A stretch of DNA of 64,000 nucleotides from an uncultured Lachnospiraceae bacterium. GTDB lineage: Bacteria > Bacillota > Clostridia > Lachnospirales > Lachnospiraceae. The position numbers were made by a program, and so were the translations under genes. The number at the start of each line of letters is the position of its first letter. Positions within the stretch are counted from its first letter, which is position 1. Shown in pieces: positions 21,898-53,755 of the stretch. Under the pieces are notes generated by a model. The model did no database searches. It worked only from the letters and a program-made list of their open reading frames with translations, and was not told the DNA's origin. Location: positions 1-64,000 of the forward strand of contig CANRFZ010000009.1 in NCBI GenBank assembly GCA_947630025.1, in the 5' to 3' direction.

Positions 21898-23865
21898 TTA
21901 CTTTTCTTCATAGATTGCCTTGACTGACATTCCGCCCTCCGATACCGGCAATTCTATATTTTCCCCCTGAATCACCTTTGTCTGGCGGGCGTCCTTTACT
22001 TCCCACTCGACAAAACGATATCCTTCGTTGGCAGAAGCCGTCAGCGTAATCGGATAGTCCGTATAATATTCTCCGCTCCATTTTCCGTTTTCGTCAAAAG
22101 GCGGCTCTATTGTATTCAGCACAACCTTACCCGCAGCCGTATCGTTCACTTCCAATACCACGGACGCAAGTGATCCCGTCAGGCCAAATTCCTCTTTGAG
22201 ATATTGCACAATATAAGGTCGGCGGCAATCCAAAAAATTCTGCACATCCGCCACCGCATCCAGGAACACGGTTGTATCTTCCGAACCCCAGAAGCGTTTT
22301 CGATGCACCTGCATCGGCTCTGTCATCAGTTCCGTATATTCCTGCACGATAGCATCTACGCGCTCCCGCGCAAAGGTTGTATTAGCCAGATCCATGAAAG
22401 TAATCACAAACTGTTTTTGAAAATCGGGATTTTGGCATAAATTATTAAAAACTGCTGAATGTTCTATCCCAGATCTTGTGGATGCTATCGTATTTGCATC
22501 GATTAAATTGGAAGACAACGCGCCGGAATTGACATCAAACAACATCCATCTCCATTTTCCATCGCCATATCTACTATCTTCATCCTTTTCCCGAACGCGC
22601 CACAATCCTTCATTTCCACTCGGCCAATCATTATACCGCCCTATATATATCTCCGAGGCATAATAATCAATATAACTCTGCATATCTATCAGTTCACAGG
22701 CATATTGATAATTGCCCTCGTCTTTCATATCTGTATTCACCATATATTTCAATATCTGCTCTACATAAAGCTCATTATCCTCCTCGTTTCCCTCTGCGAG
22801 CGTCGTAGATTTAATCATGATAACATTATTCTTTTTTACATTATAATAATAACCCAGATACGCATCATCATATTTTTCGGTAAGCCAGTACACACCCCAA
22901 TACTCGCCGTCCAAAAACATGGCACAGGGAATATAATGCATCGTGGCAAAGGCCCTGCCTTCTGTCAGCCGGGCCATCAGCATATCCCTGAACTTGGATA
23001 CCCTATCGTCCCCTCCCGCAAACAGAGTAATGGTATCTGCCATGTAACCGCTGCCAAAGAGATCAATATAAAACCTTCCTTCTCCGTCATATATGTCTCT
23101 GGCATATATATTCATGCTCCTCGGCACATTTCCCCGGGAACCGCCGCCCTGTATCCGGATGCCGCAGCTTTTCCTTTGAATAAGCTGCCTGTCCGCATCA
23201 AACAGTTGGACATCGGCGATTCGCTCCCATTCTAACCCTCTTTGGTGATAATTGGCATTCCACCACCACCAATATTCATCCAGCCCTGCAGAACGCTCCG
23301 TTTCCTGAAAAATATTGCCCAATACATAAATCCCCGTCTCCTCATCAAACAAATGATCGGGATCTGTCACGATGGACATCACATAGATATCATCGTAACC
23401 TATTTTATTGTCAAACCCTACAAAATAATTTTCTGTTTTGGTCTCACTGAAATTCCCGTCCGCATCCCTGTATGCAGCCCTGACAACCGTGCACTTATCG
23501 ACCGGATAATCCGGAACGGCATACTGTGGATCAGATTTGCTATAACGCGCTATTTTTTCTGTCAAAAAACCGGCGGACACATCTGTCCGCATGGAATATA
23601 CATTTTCATTTTCCGTCGCATCGGTGATGGAAATCGGCCCGGCATACTTGATTGCATTTTCATCCGGTTCCGAACCGTCCAAAGTATAGTAAATCTCTGT
23701 TCCCGGCGGCGCAGAGATTTTCAAGGTAAACGGTTGCTCATAAAAGCCGGATTCTCTTGAAAATGTCAACTCTGTCACGGCAGATTTATCTCCCGTCAAA
23801 AGCATTATGCCCAAGCATATGCACATAGCCGTTAAGAGCATTAAAATTTTCTGGCGCTTTATCAT
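21898..23865 (-). CDS. CotH kinase family protein (first copy)
   Basis: Exported protein of 655 residues. An N-terminal membrane anchor/signal (ILMLLTAMCICLGIMLL) is followed by a beta-rich domain with PGTEIYYTLDGSEPDENA, a chitobiase/hexosaminidase-C-like pattern. A CotH-type kinase domain (about 150-540) contains GGGSRGNVPRSMNIYARD, EYWGVYWLTEKYDD and the acidic motif WRWMLFDVNSGA. A C-terminal Ig/InlB-repeat-like stretch follows. CotH proteins of Bacillus spores are atypical protein kinases; here the target is unknown. The ATG overlaps the DUF4956 stop (ATGA), completing a VTC-DUF4956-CotH operon. Confidence 0.87.
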   Translation of the reverse strand: MIKRQKILMLLTAMCICLGIMLLTGDKSAVTELTFSRESGFYEQPFTLKISAPPGTEIYYTLDGSEPDENAIKYAGPISITDATENENVYSMRTDVSAGFLTEKIARYSKSDPQYAVPDYPVDKCTVVRAAYRDADGNFSETKTENYFVGFDNKIGYDDIYVMSIVTDPDHLFDEETGIYVLGNIFQETERSAGLDEYWWWWNANYHQRGLEWERIADVQLFDADRQLIQRKSCGIRIQGGGSRGNVPRSMNIYARDIYDGEGRFYIDLFGSGYMADTITLFAGGDDRVSKFRDMLMARLTEGRAFATMHYIPCAMFLDGEYWGVYWLTEKYDDAYLGYYYNVKKNNVIMIKSTTLAEGNEEDNELYVEQILKYMVNTDMKDEGNYQYACELIDMQSYIDYYASEIYIGRYNDWPSGNEGLWRVREKDEDSRYGDGKWRWMLFDVNSGALSSNLIDANTIASTRSGIEHSAVFNNLCQNPDFQKQFVITFMDLANTTFARERVDAIVQEYTELMTEPMQVHRKRFWGSEDTTVFLDAVADVQNFLDCRRPYIVQYLKEEFGLTGSLASVVLEVNDTAAGKVVLNTIEPPFDENGKWSGEYYTDYPITLTASANEGYRFVEWEVKDARQTKVIQGENIELPVSEGGMSVKAIYEEK

Positions 23866-24536
23866 CCTGCTTTTTCTCCCGATTCCACAACGCAATTTAC
23901 TGACTGCACGCCCGGAACCGCGGCCAGTTCATCTATAAAGGAAGCCTCCAGCTCTCCCTTCGTTTTGATCTCCATAATAATTTCCTGATAAGCATCTCTT
24001 TTGTTGATTGTCCGGATCTGCTGGCTGACAACATGAGCGCGCAGCTTCTTCTGAAAATCTTCCTGATCAATCCCCGCTTCTGTGCCTGTCACCACCAGCA
24101 GATAGCGGTTCCATATCCCCGGCGTCTTGCTGGAAATAATCAGTACAATCGCGATAAACAGTACCGAGGTAAACGTCATGCGGTAATTCTGGGAACTTAC
24201 GCACAACCCTTCCGCCATCGCCCAAAAGATAAACATGGTGTCCCTGCCGTCTTTGACGGCTGTCCGGAAACGCACAATCGACAACGCGCCCACCATGCCG
24301 AGCGATACCGCAATATTACTGCTGATCGTCATCATAACAATTACCGTCACTAACAACATGATAACCAACGACCAGTTAAATTTTCTGTTATATACGATTT
24401 TTTCCGATGTAATGTAATAGGTAAAATAGATTATCATTCCTGCCAAGAGCCCGCATAGCAGCATGGCAAAAGTTCTTTTAATTCCATAGGCGGTACTGTT
24501 TGTATAAAAATAACTTAAAATTTCCTCTTTTGACAT
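23862..24536 (-). CDS. DUF4956 membrane protein (first copy)
   Basis: Protein of 224 residues with about four membrane helices and the highly conserved DUF4956 centre VSLGMVGALSIVRFRTAVKD, followed by a small cytosolic ferredoxin-like domain (about 150-224). It is co-encoded with a VTC-type polymerase and a CotH protein. The function is unproven; a role in making or moving a cell-surface or storage polyphosphate-like product is an inference from the neighbours. Confidence 0.88.
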   Translation of the reverse strand: MSKEEILSYFYTNSTAYGIKRTFAMLLCGLLAGMIIYFTYYITSEKIVYNRKFNWSLVIMLLVTVIVMMTISSNIAVSLGMVGALSIVRFRTAVKDGRDTMFIFWAMAEGLCVSSQNYRMTFTSVLFIAIVLIISSKTPGIWNRYLLVVTGTEAGIDQEDFQKKLRAHVVSQQIRTINKRDAYQEIIMEIKTKGELEASFIDELAAVPGVQSVNCVVESGEKAG

Positions 24537-24547
24537 TCCTTTTCCTC

Positions 24548-25240
24548 CTATTGTATAAAATCATAGTAACTCTGGCGCCCTGCACAGTATTTACTATAAG
24601 ATTCCTGTGTCAACTGAAACTGTCCAAGAACATCGGAAATAAAGCCTGTCATTTTTTCATTATATTTCACTTCCAATATCGCCTGTCCCTGCAGAACCGG
24701 CGTGCAAATAAGATCCGATGCAAAAATATCCATATTGGACTCCGACGCCCGCACGTTTCTGTCCAGTGTGATTCTTGTATCATATAGCGGATACTGCCAA
24801 GCAGTCCTGTCATATTCTATCTGCACCGCAGGCCGATAGCAGTCCCGCGACATAGCCGCATATAAAGTAACGCTGAAAGGAACTTCTTTAAAATACTTTT
24901 TTAATATGTCTGTTTCTCCAAGGGATAATTGATGTGCATCGCCGCTGTCCACAATAAAACTTTCTTTATCCTGCAACTCTCCGGTCTTCTGTTTCACTTC
25001 TAATTTGCACAGAGAACAATCTTGATTATAAATACGAAGCCGGAGCTTTTTCCTCCGCTCTATTCCGGCGATTTTGTCCCAGTAGTCCGTATTATTAACC
25101 GTATCAAAATAAAGACTCCTTATCGTGTACGCACTGTCTATACAGTGCGCGTCTCTTGCAAGCAGCCGGTCTAATTTCTGCTCTATGGCATACGCTGTCT
25201 GTAATGGTACAATGTACTTTATTTCTTTTCGCAGCGCCAT
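24548..25240 (-). CDS. VTC domain protein (polyphosphate polymerase-like)
   Basis: Protein of 230 residues with the VTC/CYTH tunnel fold: N-terminal RKEIKYIVP, the basic strand RKKLRLRIYN, CKLEVKQK, and the C-terminal acidic strand ILEVKYNEKM. In yeast Vtc4 this domain polymerises phosphate from ATP, and bacterial relatives are annotated as polyphosphate polymerases. The metal-binding Glu and the Lys/Arg residues appear intact. It is the first gene of the operon with DUF4956 and CotH. Confidence 0.87.
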   Translation of the reverse strand: MALRKEIKYIVPLQTAYAIEQKLDRLLARDAHCIDSAYTIRSLYFDTVNNTDYWDKIAGIERRKKLRLRIYNQDCSLCKLEVKQKTGELQDKESFIVDSGDAHQLSLGETDILKKYFKEVPFSVTLYAAMSRDCYRPAVQIEYDRTAWQYPLYDTRITLDRNVRASESNMDIFASDLICTPVLQGQAILEVKYNEKMTGFISDVLGQFQLTQESYSKYCAGRQSYYDFIQ

Positions 25241-48720: not shown

Positions 48721-48772
48721 GTTATCTTTTCCTGTTATCTTTTCCTGTTTTCTATTCCTATTTTTTATTCCT
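48721..48772. repeat. T-rich array of four 13-bp repeats (locus B)
   Basis: Two exact copies of GTTATCTTTTCCT (48721-48733, 48734-48746) are followed by GTTTTCTATTCCT and ATTTTTTATTCCT. The last unit contains the stop codon of the minus-strand CotH gene (48765-48767). The period, base composition and position after a stop match locus A at 624-675. Confidence 0.75.
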
Positions 48773-50492
48773 GTTCCACGATTCTCGCACAACAGTAGAC
48801 ATCTTCATAGACAGGACGCATGGTGGAATATTCGTGATCAATAAATTTTCCGGCGTTTTGATCCCAATAATACCACCCGATATATTTTTCTTCATCCAAT
48901 GCGGGAAGTTCCGAGAGGCAGCTTCCATCCAAAACCGTTCTTTCTTCCATCGTTATACCGTCTAGGCTTTTAAAATATATCGTATGATATTCTCCCGTAC
49001 TTTCCGGTGATTGAAAAGAATGCCCTTCTATTCCCCACAGATCATTTAAATAATTCAAGCGATGGGCCAAAAAATATTTCAAATATTTAGTGCGGCTATC
49101 CCATTCATCATAGATAAACAAATACGGTACATCCCGCTCATATAGTACTTCGTCCATCGCCTCCGATGCCTGAATCCACTCCGCATATTGGTCTATTTCT
49201 TGATATAAAATATTTTCAAACTCAGGAAGAAGTTCCACATAAGTATCTTGCATTGACGTATAAAAATCAACGTCCTGATACAAAATATCATACCACGTTC
49301 CCATATTGTTAGGCCTTCCTTCCAAGGATGTATTATAATTTGGCAGTGCCAATCCGCACGCTTGATCGTAATCCCAAGAAGGACCTGCATAAATCTTATT
49401 TTCCTGCTGATCTAAATAATAAAACGTACTCGCCCACATCGCGTCATTTTCCATGAATATCTTATCTAACAAATATTGTTTTGCCAAGGAATCGATATCT
49501 ATATATTCTTTATAGGTATCATCTCCCGATAATAGGGCAGTTTCCGTTTTCTGAACAAAATTTTCAGTTTCTTTCATTTCCTCCGACGATAGCTTTTCAG
49601 GGCTATCATATTTAAACAGATAGTGTGCGTAATCTGTTTCAAAAAACGGTTCACCATATTTCAACTGAAAGTCTACGGCTTTCTCAAATAATATGCCGGA
49701 TGTATTCTTATACTTCTCCGATACATCTCCTGTCAGCAAATACAATCCCTGATACTCTCCGCAGCAGTACAAATCTACCCATGTGCATTCCGGTGTTCCG
49801 GTGAATCCTATCTTACGGGCCGTGTCAAGAATAATCTTAGAGTGCATTTTATCATATTCATAATAGAGTGCCAGCAGTTTCCAATTTTTAGCGGAACTCA
49901 AATCACATAGCGGATAACTGTCTTTTAAAGAAATCGCATAAGGTTTTTTGGCGGCCTGCCATGTCATATTCCCACGGCCTGATATTTTATTCAAGTTTCC
50001 CGTATATTCTATATGTCCGTCTTTTTCAATGATTGTCAGCGATCCTGTTTCTTCATACTCTTTATCCGCCCATACGGAATCCATATTTCCACTGGAAGTA
50101 TAAATAAAAAAAGCCGGCAGATTTTCGGATTTCATAAAAGTGATCCGCATGAAATCGCCATCTATCCTCAGAGAATAGATTCTATCTTTCTCCCACACCC
50201 ATTTTGCCCTTTTATGTATCTTATTTCCGTCTATCTCTACGCTATGCCGGGACGAATCAAAATAAACGGTTTCATCATTCACACAAGAAGGCAGAAAAAA
50301 ATAATAGACGCCTTGTGTCTCGTCGTACCAGGGCATTATTTTTTGCGTGCTCTCGTCCGCTTTTACAGAAACATAAAAATTTCCGCCGTCATCTACAACA
50401 AACTGGGTTTTTCTTTTACTTTCGGAAATCAGGAAGCCCAGCATACACAGAAAAATCAGAAAAATCCCTAATAGCGCAATTCTCTTTTTCAT
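48765..50492 (-). CDS. CotH kinase family protein (second copy)
   Basis: Exported protein of 575 residues. The signal/anchor helix is KKRIALLGIFLIFLCMLGFLI. The CotH domain (about 140-500) includes GRGNMTWQAAKKPYAISLKD, CGEYQGLYLLTGDV and AGPSWDYDQACGLALPNY with the conserved Asp residues. It is clearly related to the first copy but diverged and lacks the N-terminal chitobiase-like part. The start at 50492 lies one base after the DUF4956 stop; the upstream alternative (50516) is possible. Confidence 0.85.
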   Translation of the reverse strand: MKKRIALLGIFLIFLCMLGFLISESKRKTQFVVDDGGNFYVSVKADESTQKIMPWYDETQGVYYFFLPSCVNDETVYFDSSRHSVEIDGNKIHKRAKWVWEKDRIYSLRIDGDFMRITFMKSENLPAFFIYTSSGNMDSVWADKEYEETGSLTIIEKDGHIEYTGNLNKISGRGNMTWQAAKKPYAISLKDSYPLCDLSSAKNWKLLALYYEYDKMHSKIILDTARKIGFTGTPECTWVDLYCCGEYQGLYLLTGDVSEKYKNTSGILFEKAVDFQLKYGEPFFETDYAHYLFKYDSPEKLSSEEMKETENFVQKTETALLSGDDTYKEYIDIDSLAKQYLLDKIFMENDAMWASTFYYLDQQENKIYAGPSWDYDQACGLALPNYNTSLEGRPNNMGTWYDILYQDVDFYTSMQDTYVELLPEFENILYQEIDQYAEWIQASEAMDEVLYERDVPYLFIYDEWDSRTKYLKYFLAHRLNYLNDLWGIEGHSFQSPESTGEYHTIYFKSLDGITMEERTVLDGSCLSELPALDEEKYIGWYYWDQNAGKFIDHEYSTMRPVYEDVYCCARIVEQE

Positions 50493-50493
50493 G

Positions 50494-51178
50494 CTAGATC
50501 CGATACTCCCCATCATGCTTCACCAGATGAACCTGGTCAAATTTATATTTTTTATGGAGATCGTTTACCAGATCCGCCTCTCTGGAAGTTTTGATTTCAT
50601 AAATCACTTCCGTCTGGCTGTTTTTCAAACTGCGGGATTTTTCTTTATGATATTTTGAATATTTTTTTATTTCCTCACTGATCTGTTTCCAATCAATATT
50701 TTCATCGCACGAACACAGTACGAGGAGCGCCGGCGCTTTGGAATTGGGAACACGATCCAAAGCAGCCAGCATAACCGTCATAACAATACACAGACAGAAA
50801 GCCAGTATGGACAACCCGACGCCGCATATGATACCCGCGCTGACTGCCCAGAACAGATAGAGCAGATCCAATGGATTTTTGATGGCGCTGCGGAACCTGA
50901 CAATGGAGAGCGCACCGACCATACCCAGTGAAACGATCAGATTGGACTGCATCGCAATCATGATCGCCGCAACGATCACCGGCATTCCTGCCATTGTGAT
51001 ATTCAGATCTTTGGAATAAAACGCCGCTTTACTGGTCAGCTTATAAACGGCAAATATGTATAACCCGATCAGGCAGGACAGAAGCAATATAACGAGAATG
51101 CTTCTGGCTGATAGACTCGTCCCCCCCCCCTAAGCTATTGTAAATGCTTGATTTTATCACATCTTTTACCGATAGCAT
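50494..51178 (-). pseudogene. DUF4956 membrane protein (second copy), frame broken at a G10 tract
   Basis: Reading from ATG 51178, placed 3 bases after the gyrA stop and preceded by GAGGAATAAGG, gives 16 codons (MLSVKDVIKSSIYNSL), then a run of ten G (51130-51121). With ten G the frame shifts and stops soon after. With nine G (or twelve) it joins the rest: TSLSARSILVILLLS, then the DUF4956 core VSLGMVGALSIVRFRSAIKN. The restored protein has about 227 residues, matching the 224 of the first copy. Either the gene is phase-variable, inactivated, or the run length is a sequencing error. A TTG at 51087 would give a shortened form of 197 residues. Confidence 0.8.
51121..51130 (-). repeat. G10 homopolymer tract in the DUF4956 gene
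   Basis: Ten C on the plus strand (ten G in the coding strand) lie within the first 20 codons. It is the only single-base GC homopolymer this long that I noticed. Slippage by one base restores the reading frame. Confidence 0.85.
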
Positions 51179-51181
51179 ACC

Positions 51182-53755
51182 TTATTCCTCATCTTCCTCT
51201 TTCGGCAGCGTTACTTCTTTATCATCGTCTTCCACGGGAAGATGGTATCGCTCCTCCTCCGGGATATCTTCCATCGCGTCCTCGATATTCTCAAACTCCT
51301 GATTGCCGTCGCTGATCTTCTCGCGCACTTTGGCGATTTTTGCGACCTTCACATTCTGGTCGAGATTGATCATCTTGACGCCGGAAGTGATTCTTCCCAG
51401 AGTGGAAATATCTTCCATGCGAAGCTGTATGATAATGCCCTCCGTTGTAATCATCATGATTTCATGGTCGTCGTTGACTGCCTTGACGCCCACCACGTCG
51501 CCTGTCTTTTCCGTGATCTTATAGCATTTCACGCCCTTACCGCCGCGTTTCTGTACCGTAAATTCATTCAGATAGGTGCGCTTTCCGAGGCCGTTCTCCG
51601 AGACAATCAGCAGGGAGTCGCCCTGATGGTCTAACTGCATTCCTACGATCTCGTCCTGATCTGAGAGATTCATGCCGATAACGCCCATAGAGGAACGTCC
51701 CGTCGGGCGCACATCCGTCTCCTTGAAACGGATACACATACCGTGCTTTGTCACAAGGAAAATCTCTGTCTCCGCGGACGTGGTCTTCACTTCGATCAGC
51801 TCGTCGTCGTCGCGCAGATTGATAGCCATTAGGCCGTTTTTCCTGACATGGCTGAACTCCATCACGGAAGTTTTCTTTACCGTGCCTTTCTTAGTGACCA
51901 TAAAAAGGTTCTTGTTTTCTTCATATTCCTTGATCGGAATCATCGCCGTGATCTTTTCGCCCGGATTTAACTGCAGGATATTAACGATGGCAATCCCTCT
52001 GGACGTCCTGCTCGACTCCGGAATCTCGTAAGCCTTCAGTCTGTAAACCCGTCCCAGATTGGTAAAGAACATCAGATAGTGATGGGTTGTCGTCATCAGC
52101 AGGTCTTCTATATAATCCTCCTCGATGGTCTGCATTCCCTTGATGCCCTTGCCGCCGCGGTTCTGCGCCTTGAAATTGTCTACGGTCATGCGTTTCACAT
52201 AGCCCAGACTGGTCATGGCGATCACGGTATTTTCCCTCGGAATCAGATCTTCCATGTTGATGTCATAGACGTCGAAACCGATCTGGCTTCTTCTGTCGTC
52301 GCCGTACTTCTCGGCGATCATCAGCATTTCTTCTTTGATCACGCCGAGCAGCAGCTTCTCATCCGCCAGAATCGCCTTTAATTCCGCGATCTTCTCCATC
52401 AATTCCTTATGTTCATTCTCGATCTTCTCCCGCTCCAGACCTGTCAGCGCGCGCAGACGCATATCCACGATAGCCTGTGCCTGTGCGTCGGACAGTTTGA
52501 AACGCTCCATCAGCCTTTCTTTTGCGATCTGGGTAGTCTGGCTGTTTCGGACGATCTGGATCACTTCGTCGATATGGTCTAGGGCAATCAGCAGACCTTG
52601 CAAAATATGATCCCTCTCCTCGGCCTTATTCAGATCATACTTCGTCCTTCTGGTGACGATTTCCTCCTGATGCTTCAGATAATGAGTAAGCATATCGAGA
52701 AGATTCATCACCTTGGGCTCGTTATTCACAAGCGCCAGCATAATCACGCCGAAGGAATCCTGCATCTGCGTGTGTTTATAGAGCTGATTCAGAATCACAT
52801 TGGCGTTGGCGTCCCTGCGGAGCTCGATCACGATCCGCATTCCTTCGCGGTTCGTCTCATCGCGGAGATCCGTGATGCCGTCGATTTTTTTCATTTTTAC
52901 CAGATCGGCGATCTTGAGGATCAGATTTGCCTTGTTTACCATATAGGGCAGTTCCGTGACGATGATCTGCGTCTTGCCGTTGGGGAGCGTTTCGATATCC
53001 GTCACCGCGCGCACGCGCACTTTGCCGCGCCCGGTGCGATAGGCTTCCTCCGCCCCTCTCGTGCCGAGAATAATACCACCCGTCGGAAAATCCGGCGCTT
53101 TGACGATATTCAGGATTTCATCGATATCGGTCTGCCGGTTTTCATTCACCCTGTTGTCGATAATCTTGACGACGGCATTCGTCACCTCACGCAGATTGTG
53201 GGGCGGGATATTGGTAGCCATGCCGACGGCGATACCGGAAGTGCCGTTTACCAGCAGATTCGGATAACGGCTCGGCAGTACGACAGGCTCCTTCTCCGTA
53301 TCGTCAAAGTTGGGAACGAAATCCACCGTATCCTTGTTGATATCGGCGAGAAGTTCCATCGAAATCTTGCTCAGTCTCGCCTCCGTGTAACGCATCGCCG
53401 CGGCGCCGTCGCCGTCCTCGGAGCCGAAATTGCCGTGGCCATCCACCAGCGGATAGCGGGTAGACCATTCCTGCGCCATATTGACTAACGCGCCGTAGAT
53501 CGAACTGTCGCCGTGAGGGTGATATTTACCCATCGTATCACCGACGATACGTGCGCTCTTTCTGTGCGGCTTGTCCGGACCGTTATTCAACTCGATCATA
53601 GAGTACAGAACGCGCCTCTGCACCGGCTTCAGGCCGTCTCTCACATCGGGAAGCGCACGAGCGGCGATAACGCTCATGGCATAATCAATGTAAGAGTCTT
53701 CCATTTTTTTCTTGAGGTCTACTTCCTCGATTTTGTCAAATATTTTATCGTCCAT
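51182..53755 (-). CDS. gyrA: DNA gyrase subunit A
   Basis: Type II topoisomerase subunit of 857 residues that cuts and rejoins DNA to introduce negative supercoils, together with Gyr[23 protein letters not shown] opens the winged-helix region, [20 protein letters not shown] spans the quinolone-resistance region, and [10 protein letters not shown] carries the active Tyr. The C-terminal beta-pinwheel repeats include [11 protein letters not shown] (GyrA box). The tail is acidic. The ATG follows a weak GAGTGAGG. Confidence 0.97.

Follow-up and report, generated by a model that had tools for sequence, protein, structure and literature searches.

The window, a 64,000-nucleotide stretch analysed as a whole (positions 1 to 64,000 of contig CANRFZ010000009.1, from an uncultured Lachnospiraceae bacterium), carries gyrA on its minus strand (51182..53755), directly upstream of a DUF4956 gene that is cut by a poly-G tract. 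The start codon of this gene, ATG 51178, and its first 16 codons (MLSVKDVIKSSIYNSL; 51131..51178, minus strand), an N-terminus that recurs in relatives, lead into ten G (51121..51130, minus strand) that stand where a Gly-Gly-Gly motif is conserved, the minus-strand context being TTA-(G)10-ACG with the run read from 51130 to 51121. Behind it, the remaining DUF4956 frame (50494..51120, minus strand), which matches Pfam PF16316 at 49.2 bits against a curated cut-off of 30.6, continues for 208 codons without interruption to its stop at 50494. As assembled, this frame lies one base out of register with the start, and reading from ATG 51178 ends at a TAA stop after 45 residues. The ten-G run that, according to an earlier note on this DNA, breaks the second DUF4956 gene after gyrA is present in the assembled sequence, with frames and coordinates in agreement; the rejoining at nine or twelve G claimed there is borne out as well, the two frames meeting only when the tract length is divisible by three, and the proposed restored length of about 227 corresponds to 16 + 3 + 208 = 227 codons in the joined gene. 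A change of tract length by one base shifts the reading frame of a gene that is otherwise open. The G10 is the single G/C run of at least eight in the window; 0.07 runs of its kind are expected by chance in a window of the same composition, and one was present in 4 of 100 shuffles. With its position directly after codon 16, it has a hallmark of poly-G phase-variable loci, namely at least eight G/C inside or just before a gene.

Because only three bases separate the gyrA stop (51182) from the DUF4956 start, the two genes probably share a transcript. On the downstream side, a CotH-kinase gene (48765..50492, minus strand; Pfam PF08757) likely starts at ATG 50492, the start in the open reading frame list being an earlier in-frame ATG at 50516. 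A single base lies between the DUF4956 stop and this likely CotH start, and DUF4956 and CotH are probably coupled in translation. Given such proximity, CotH should fall when the upstream translation is lost, and a polar loss of CotH in the out-of-frame state of DUF4956 appears plausible.

The paralogue that the earlier note had used for comparison (23862..24536, minus strand), situated beside a VTC gene (24548-25240) and a CotH gene (21898-23895), is indeed intact, but it is just 28% identical to the interrupted gene, and a nearer paralogue, also intact and 61% identical, exists on contig 4 of the same genome (C4:91719-92303). In other genomes, a VTC gene is found near DUF4956 in 103 of 109 loci, with a CotH match in the flank of some. 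The position behind gyrA occurs in none of these 109 loci, a count in which some loci are cut by contig ends and the genome sets overlap. Compared with the VTC-DUF4956-CotH cassette, the locus described here retains CotH as a neighbour, and VTC is not adjacent, gyrA standing in its place. A DUF4956-CotH pair directly behind gyrA (window 50494-53755) is, among the loci compared, peculiar to this genome. The Pel exopolysaccharide loci of streptococci and clostridia are accompanied by CotH, a polyphosphate polymerase and DUF4956, as described in the accessible text of PMC7112168, and a surface role for the DUF4956-CotH pair would fit with this association.

Conservation of the start region and the glycine motif

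DUF4956 was searched for in the window's genome and in 115 relatives, 116 genomes in all, of which 89 gave matches; the tract site was compared in the 29 best-scoring loci from other species, which all belong to the same genus. The earlier note had made its reading depend on an in-frame N-terminal extension in sibling genomes, and this extension is there: the pattern M-S-x-K-D-V-I-K-x-S-V-Y-E-S-L is found in 27 of the 29 loci, the N-terminus of the 28th is recognised by eye behind a different start codon, and that of the 29th is cut off by a contig end. At the tract position, 25 of the 27 pattern-matched loci have Gly-Gly-Gly, the remaining two having GVG and GGS. None of the 27 encodes these glycines by an unbroken G run, the longest G run being six, and a G tract at the same DUF4956 site was looked for in all 29 sibling loci and found in none. 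The paralogue on contig 4 keeps the N-terminus and has Gly-Gly-Gly-Gly in mixed codons. The codon GGG accounts for 15% of glycine codons in the long frames of the window. Since relatives keep both the N-terminus and the Gly-Gly-Gly at the tract site, the start at ATG 51178 is real, and the tract falls on a conserved motif, its ten-G allele being a frameshifted form of a genuine gene. Three glycines turning into nine G is one of the birth routes listed for Campylobacter tracts in the accessible portion of PMC6321876, and the DUF4956 tract may illustrate how conserved glycine codons give rise to a switch.

G runs across the genome

The assembly (2.64 Mb in 30 contigs, 81.6% complete) contains, on both strands together, 10 runs of eight G, 63 of nine and 8 of ten, hence 81 of at least eight, and not one of exactly seven. 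Long G tracts exceed chance genome-wide, with a sharp peak at nine and a gap at seven. In a 464-kb sample consisting of the window and 20 further stretches, G/C runs number 1416 at length four, 184 at five, 4 at six and 0 at seven. The A/T runs of the same sample thin out gradually: there are 2750 of length four, 116 of seven, 20 of eight and 2 of nine. This decay with no hump at nine bases rules out a general taste for homopolymers. Glycine codons as the general cause of the tracts are likewise ruled out, the 28 two-sided tracts with G in the sense strand starting 7, 13 and 8 times in the three codon phases; tracts outside genes also contradict such an origin. Hypermutable tracts show just such a gap at seven followed by a second peak at nine, as in Campylobacter, for which the accessible text of PMC6321876 gives peaks at nine (53%) and ten (26%) among G/C tracts, with seven and eight less common.

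At the ends of contigs 11 and 27 (L159:2180-2288 and L179:1900-2033), there is a very G-rich repeat whose G runs are 8-10 long. It is perhaps collapsed, and its tracts, included in the 81, are perhaps not ordinary ones.

Reading frames at the tracts

A codon model trained on the long frames of the window was used to ask, for each side of a tract, whether the DNA is coding and in which frame. Confident coding on both sides allowed 30 of the 81 tracts to be scored; the other 51 were left unscored, and the window's own G10 stands outside the 30, its left piece being too short for the rule. The two sides were in frame at 22 of the 30 tracts and out of frame at 8. Controls subjected to the same test were out of frame in 7 of 126 cases for G5, 44 of 1038 for G4 and 0 of 2 for G6, and in 6 of 153 for A6, 1 of 30 for A7 and 1 of 6 for A8 (8 of 189 for A6-A8 pooled). 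The test thus has a baseline at which 4-6% of G4 and G5 controls score as broken, and the tracts exceed it (one-sided Fisher p of 0.002 against G5, 5e-5 against G4 and 3e-4 against pooled A6-A8). Under other thresholds, restricted to the G-sense strand, the out-of-frame count becomes 9 of 31, 4 of 19 or 3 of 17, and the strictest of these (3 of 17) shows no clear difference from the G5 control taken at default thresholds (p 0.10). The sense strand carries the G in 28 of these 30 tracts, compared with 94 of the 126 G5 runs (p 0.02). The consequence for a single gene is seen in an acyltransferase that falls into two pieces at its tract: the one on the left matches profile positions 2-96, and the one on the right, in another frame, positions 90-325.

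Genes and promoters carrying tracts

Genes or gene pieces in or just behind 51 other tracts, then 7 more, were scanned against Pfam. Families that by name transfer or modify glycosyl, acyl or polysaccharide groups were found at 13 of the 51 tracts: acyltransferase 3 (2), MBOAT (3), GT4, GT10, GT61, PMT_2, polysaccharide pyruvyl transferase, WcbI, UDP-GlcNAc 2-epimerase and polysaccharide deacetylase. FkbM methyltransferases occur at 4 further tracts of the 51, one of them under the curated cut-off, and a Pfam match was absent for 9 of the 51 tract genes. The 7 further tract genes include no glycan or FkbM family. The background of 20 random long frames holds one glycan family (GT11) when a Mur ligase is left uncounted, giving one-sided Fisher p values of 0.045 (13/51), 0.010 (17/51), 0.07 (13/58) and 0.02 (17/58); with the Mur ligase counted in the background, the same four comparisons give 0.13, 0.04, 0.19 and 0.07. 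The grouping is our own reading of Pfam names, the background is small (20), and the signal fades under stricter counting. The enrichment of surface-glycan genes among tract genes is therefore modest and is considered a lead rather than proof. Further tract genes encode YfhO, CotH, solute-binding proteins, a chemotaxis receptor, a response regulator and a FabA-like protein; sulfatase-like proteins at tracts score at or below the cut-off. Regulators are also touched by tracts (L043, L152 and L168 of genome G000): one tract lies within an AraC-domain response regulator, another at the end of a histidine kinase, and a third upstream of a chemotaxis receptor.

Promoters were scanned at 108 tracts (the 81 of this genome and the first 27 of a related species of the same genus, G055), with 300 shuffles of the flanks for comparison. 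Six of the 108 are flanked by a -35-like box on one side and a -10-like box on the other at a score of at least 10; the shuffles average 0.22 and never exceed 2. Two of the six, located a short distance apart (L202), are near-copies of each other. When the score is relaxed to 8, the number is 17 against a mean of 8.2.

Tracts in a related species and across the genus

The related species G055 has, in the DNA around its nine-G hits, 67 tracts of at least eight, made up of 60 nines, 6 tens and 1 eight, with eights sought only around those hits; runs of exactly seven G number zero in its genome. The frame test placed 3 of 19 readings out of frame, a count in which one tract may figure on both strands and which shows no clear difference from the G5 control (p 0.13). 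A YfhO gene of this species is split at its tract into a left piece covering positions 4-114 (25.3 bits, below cut-off) and a right piece in another frame covering 124-629. The closest DUF4956 matches in G055 are only 34% identical to the interrupted gene.

Two of the 67 tract sites are common to both species. At one (L154:1940-2080, with its match in L273), each species has a nine-G run in a 19-base promoter spacer that separates TTGACA from a -10-like box, and other letters of the spacer differ; the small membrane-protein gene that follows is the same in the two. The second lies in a gene for a DUF6020 protein whose residues 92-543 are 89% identical between the species; the frame is kept here and broken in G055. 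The tract has nine G in both species, and a neighbouring one-base difference sets the frame. Three other tract sites of G055 could be aligned, and none has a run of at least eight in the window's genome. As just 2 of 67 sites are shared, the turnover of tract sites looks fast.

Across 75 genomes of the genus, the window's own included, positions of overlapping nine-G matches were set against runs of exactly seven, a count in which overlapping positions overstate long runs. Nines outnumber sevens in 65 of the 75 genomes, the medians being 25 nine-G positions and 5 exact sevens, and in 2 of 20 genomes from other genera of the family. At least 10 nine-G positions together with at least three times the number of exact sevens are present in 46 of the 75, compared with 0 of the 20. 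The MutL gene of the window's genome has an intact frame with 643 codons open, which rules out MutL loss as the cause of high slippage here; a MutL match above cut-off is found in 72 of the 75 members of the genus.

Discussion

On the collective evidence, we regard it as very likely that the G10 acts as a contingency locus, undergoing slipped-strand phase variation, and that the assembly shows it in its OFF form. The earlier note had recognised a phase-variation tract in this run, and its reading draws support from the nine-G peak with zero sevens, the excess of frame breaks, the tracts in promoter spacers and the two sites in common with the related species, which together suggest a genome-wide set of switches. 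Membership of the G10 in a Campylobacter-like poly-G set of a Lachnospiraceae genus appears to be the best explanation of these features. In mechanistic terms, slippage of the DNA polymerase would add or remove G at a high rate, and cells would alternate between the full-length DUF4956 membrane protein, made when the tract length is divisible by three, and a dead end of 45 residues. In the OFF state, translation would break off roughly 550 bases short of the likely CotH start, with CotH probably reduced as a result. The DUF4956-CotH pair would act at the cell surface, within a set of switchable surface-glycan and envelope genes. In the broader form of the proposal, which we consider likely, a gut Lachnospiraceae genus known mostly from metagenomes runs a poly-G phasome of Campylobacter scale with MutL intact and switches surface-glycan and envelope genes through reading frame and promoter spacing, the DUF4956 tract being a young switch that arose from three conserved glycine codons.

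An assembly or sequencing error, with a true length of nine G and a gene that is simply intact, is the alternative that deserves the most attention, yet we hold it to be unlikely. In its favour, a stretch of ten G could plausibly be miscalled by one base, the assembly is fragmentary, and the accessible text of a Bifidobacterium study (PMC9187656) describes tract lengths in a deposited genome that differed from those found by deep sequencing. At nine G, however, the tract would still belong to the genome-wide class that peaks at nine and has zero sevens, and an error of one base cannot create such a class; moreover, out-of-frame tracts recur in this genome, less often in G055. One could also imagine an extra DUF4956-CotH pair behind gyrA in the course of being lost, its frameshift a one-way event at a chance G run. 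The intact 61% identical paralogue, the absence of the gene behind gyrA from all 109 loci of other genomes and the lack of a VTC neighbour would suit such a decaying duplicate, which nonetheless appears quite improbable: all 208 codons are open apart from the tract, the CotH gene that follows is open as well, and a lone event of decay leaves 80 other tracts unexplained.

Two further possibilities would leave the DNA unchanged. A run of ten identical bases is slippery, and the RNA polymerase or the ribosome could slip on it to give a fixed fraction of full-length product, for which the transcriptional slippage that appears to rescue some poly-A tracts of Buchnera, as described in the accessible text of PMC2831843, provides a precedent. 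Programmed re-framing, however, can play no part at the nine-G runs that occur in promoter spacers or outside genes, and as the explanation of the locus it is judged very improbable, even though it may add leaky expression. The reading to which we assign the smallest probability of all takes nine-G runs for fixed functional DNA elements, either a protein site or a G-quadruplex, that are not hypermutable. The very narrow length peak and the bias of G toward the sense strand in two-sided coding tracts (28:2 as compared to 94:32 for G5) speak in its favour; the existence of lengths 8 and 10, the out-of-frame tracts inside genes and the use of all three codon phases speak against it.

Slipped-strand phase variation has been catalogued mostly in Gram-negative pathogens. 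A phase-variable poly-G locus is of a known kind, and we found no report of poly-G phase variation in Lachnospiraceae in the open-access literature, most subscription papers lying outside the scope of the search. The closest likeness is to the poly-G phasome of Campylobacter (PMC6321876), with which the present set has in common the nine-G peak, tracts both in genes and in promoters and, for the DUF4956 tract, a possible origin from glycine codons; in that organism, according to the accessible text, most tracts lie in genes and some act via promoters. Campylobacter is, however, Gram-negative and GC-poor, and isolate-level evidence of variation exists for some strains, whereas the tracts described here belong to a Lachnospiraceae bacterium with roughly 50% GC in the window and MutL present, and are known from sequence alone. 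In Bifidobacterium breve, another gut commensal, the length of a G tract in the first gene of a sortase-pilus operon sets the frame and downstream expression, and the in-frame length is enriched in mice, as reported in the accessible part of PMC9187656. That switch is supported by deep sequencing and concerns the pilus operons of an actinobacterium, unlike the roughly 80 tracts in many kinds of gene that we read from the assembled DNA only. The accessory genes of Gram-positive Pel loci (PMC7112168) resemble the present locus in the pairing of DUF4956 with CotH, there tied to exopolysaccharide loci; here, by contrast, the pair stands behind gyrA without VTC, and the accessible text on Pel loci mentions no tract.

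If the proposal is true, commensal gut Lachnospiraceae diversify their surface cell by cell, which bears on phage resistance, immune recognition and strain typing, and some of the apparent pseudogenes in metagenome assemblies of this kind would be genes switched off. Beyond the family, a run of at least 22 G was noted in a genome from another family of the order (G255:C23:372-393) and may be an assembly artefact. Some genomes in other families of the order (f5, f18, f19 and part of f11, including f11/g80) are rich in runs of at least nine G, partly with many sevens as well, reaching up to 407 nine-G positions with 29 exact sevens in G088, and these G-rich genomes may be further phasomes.
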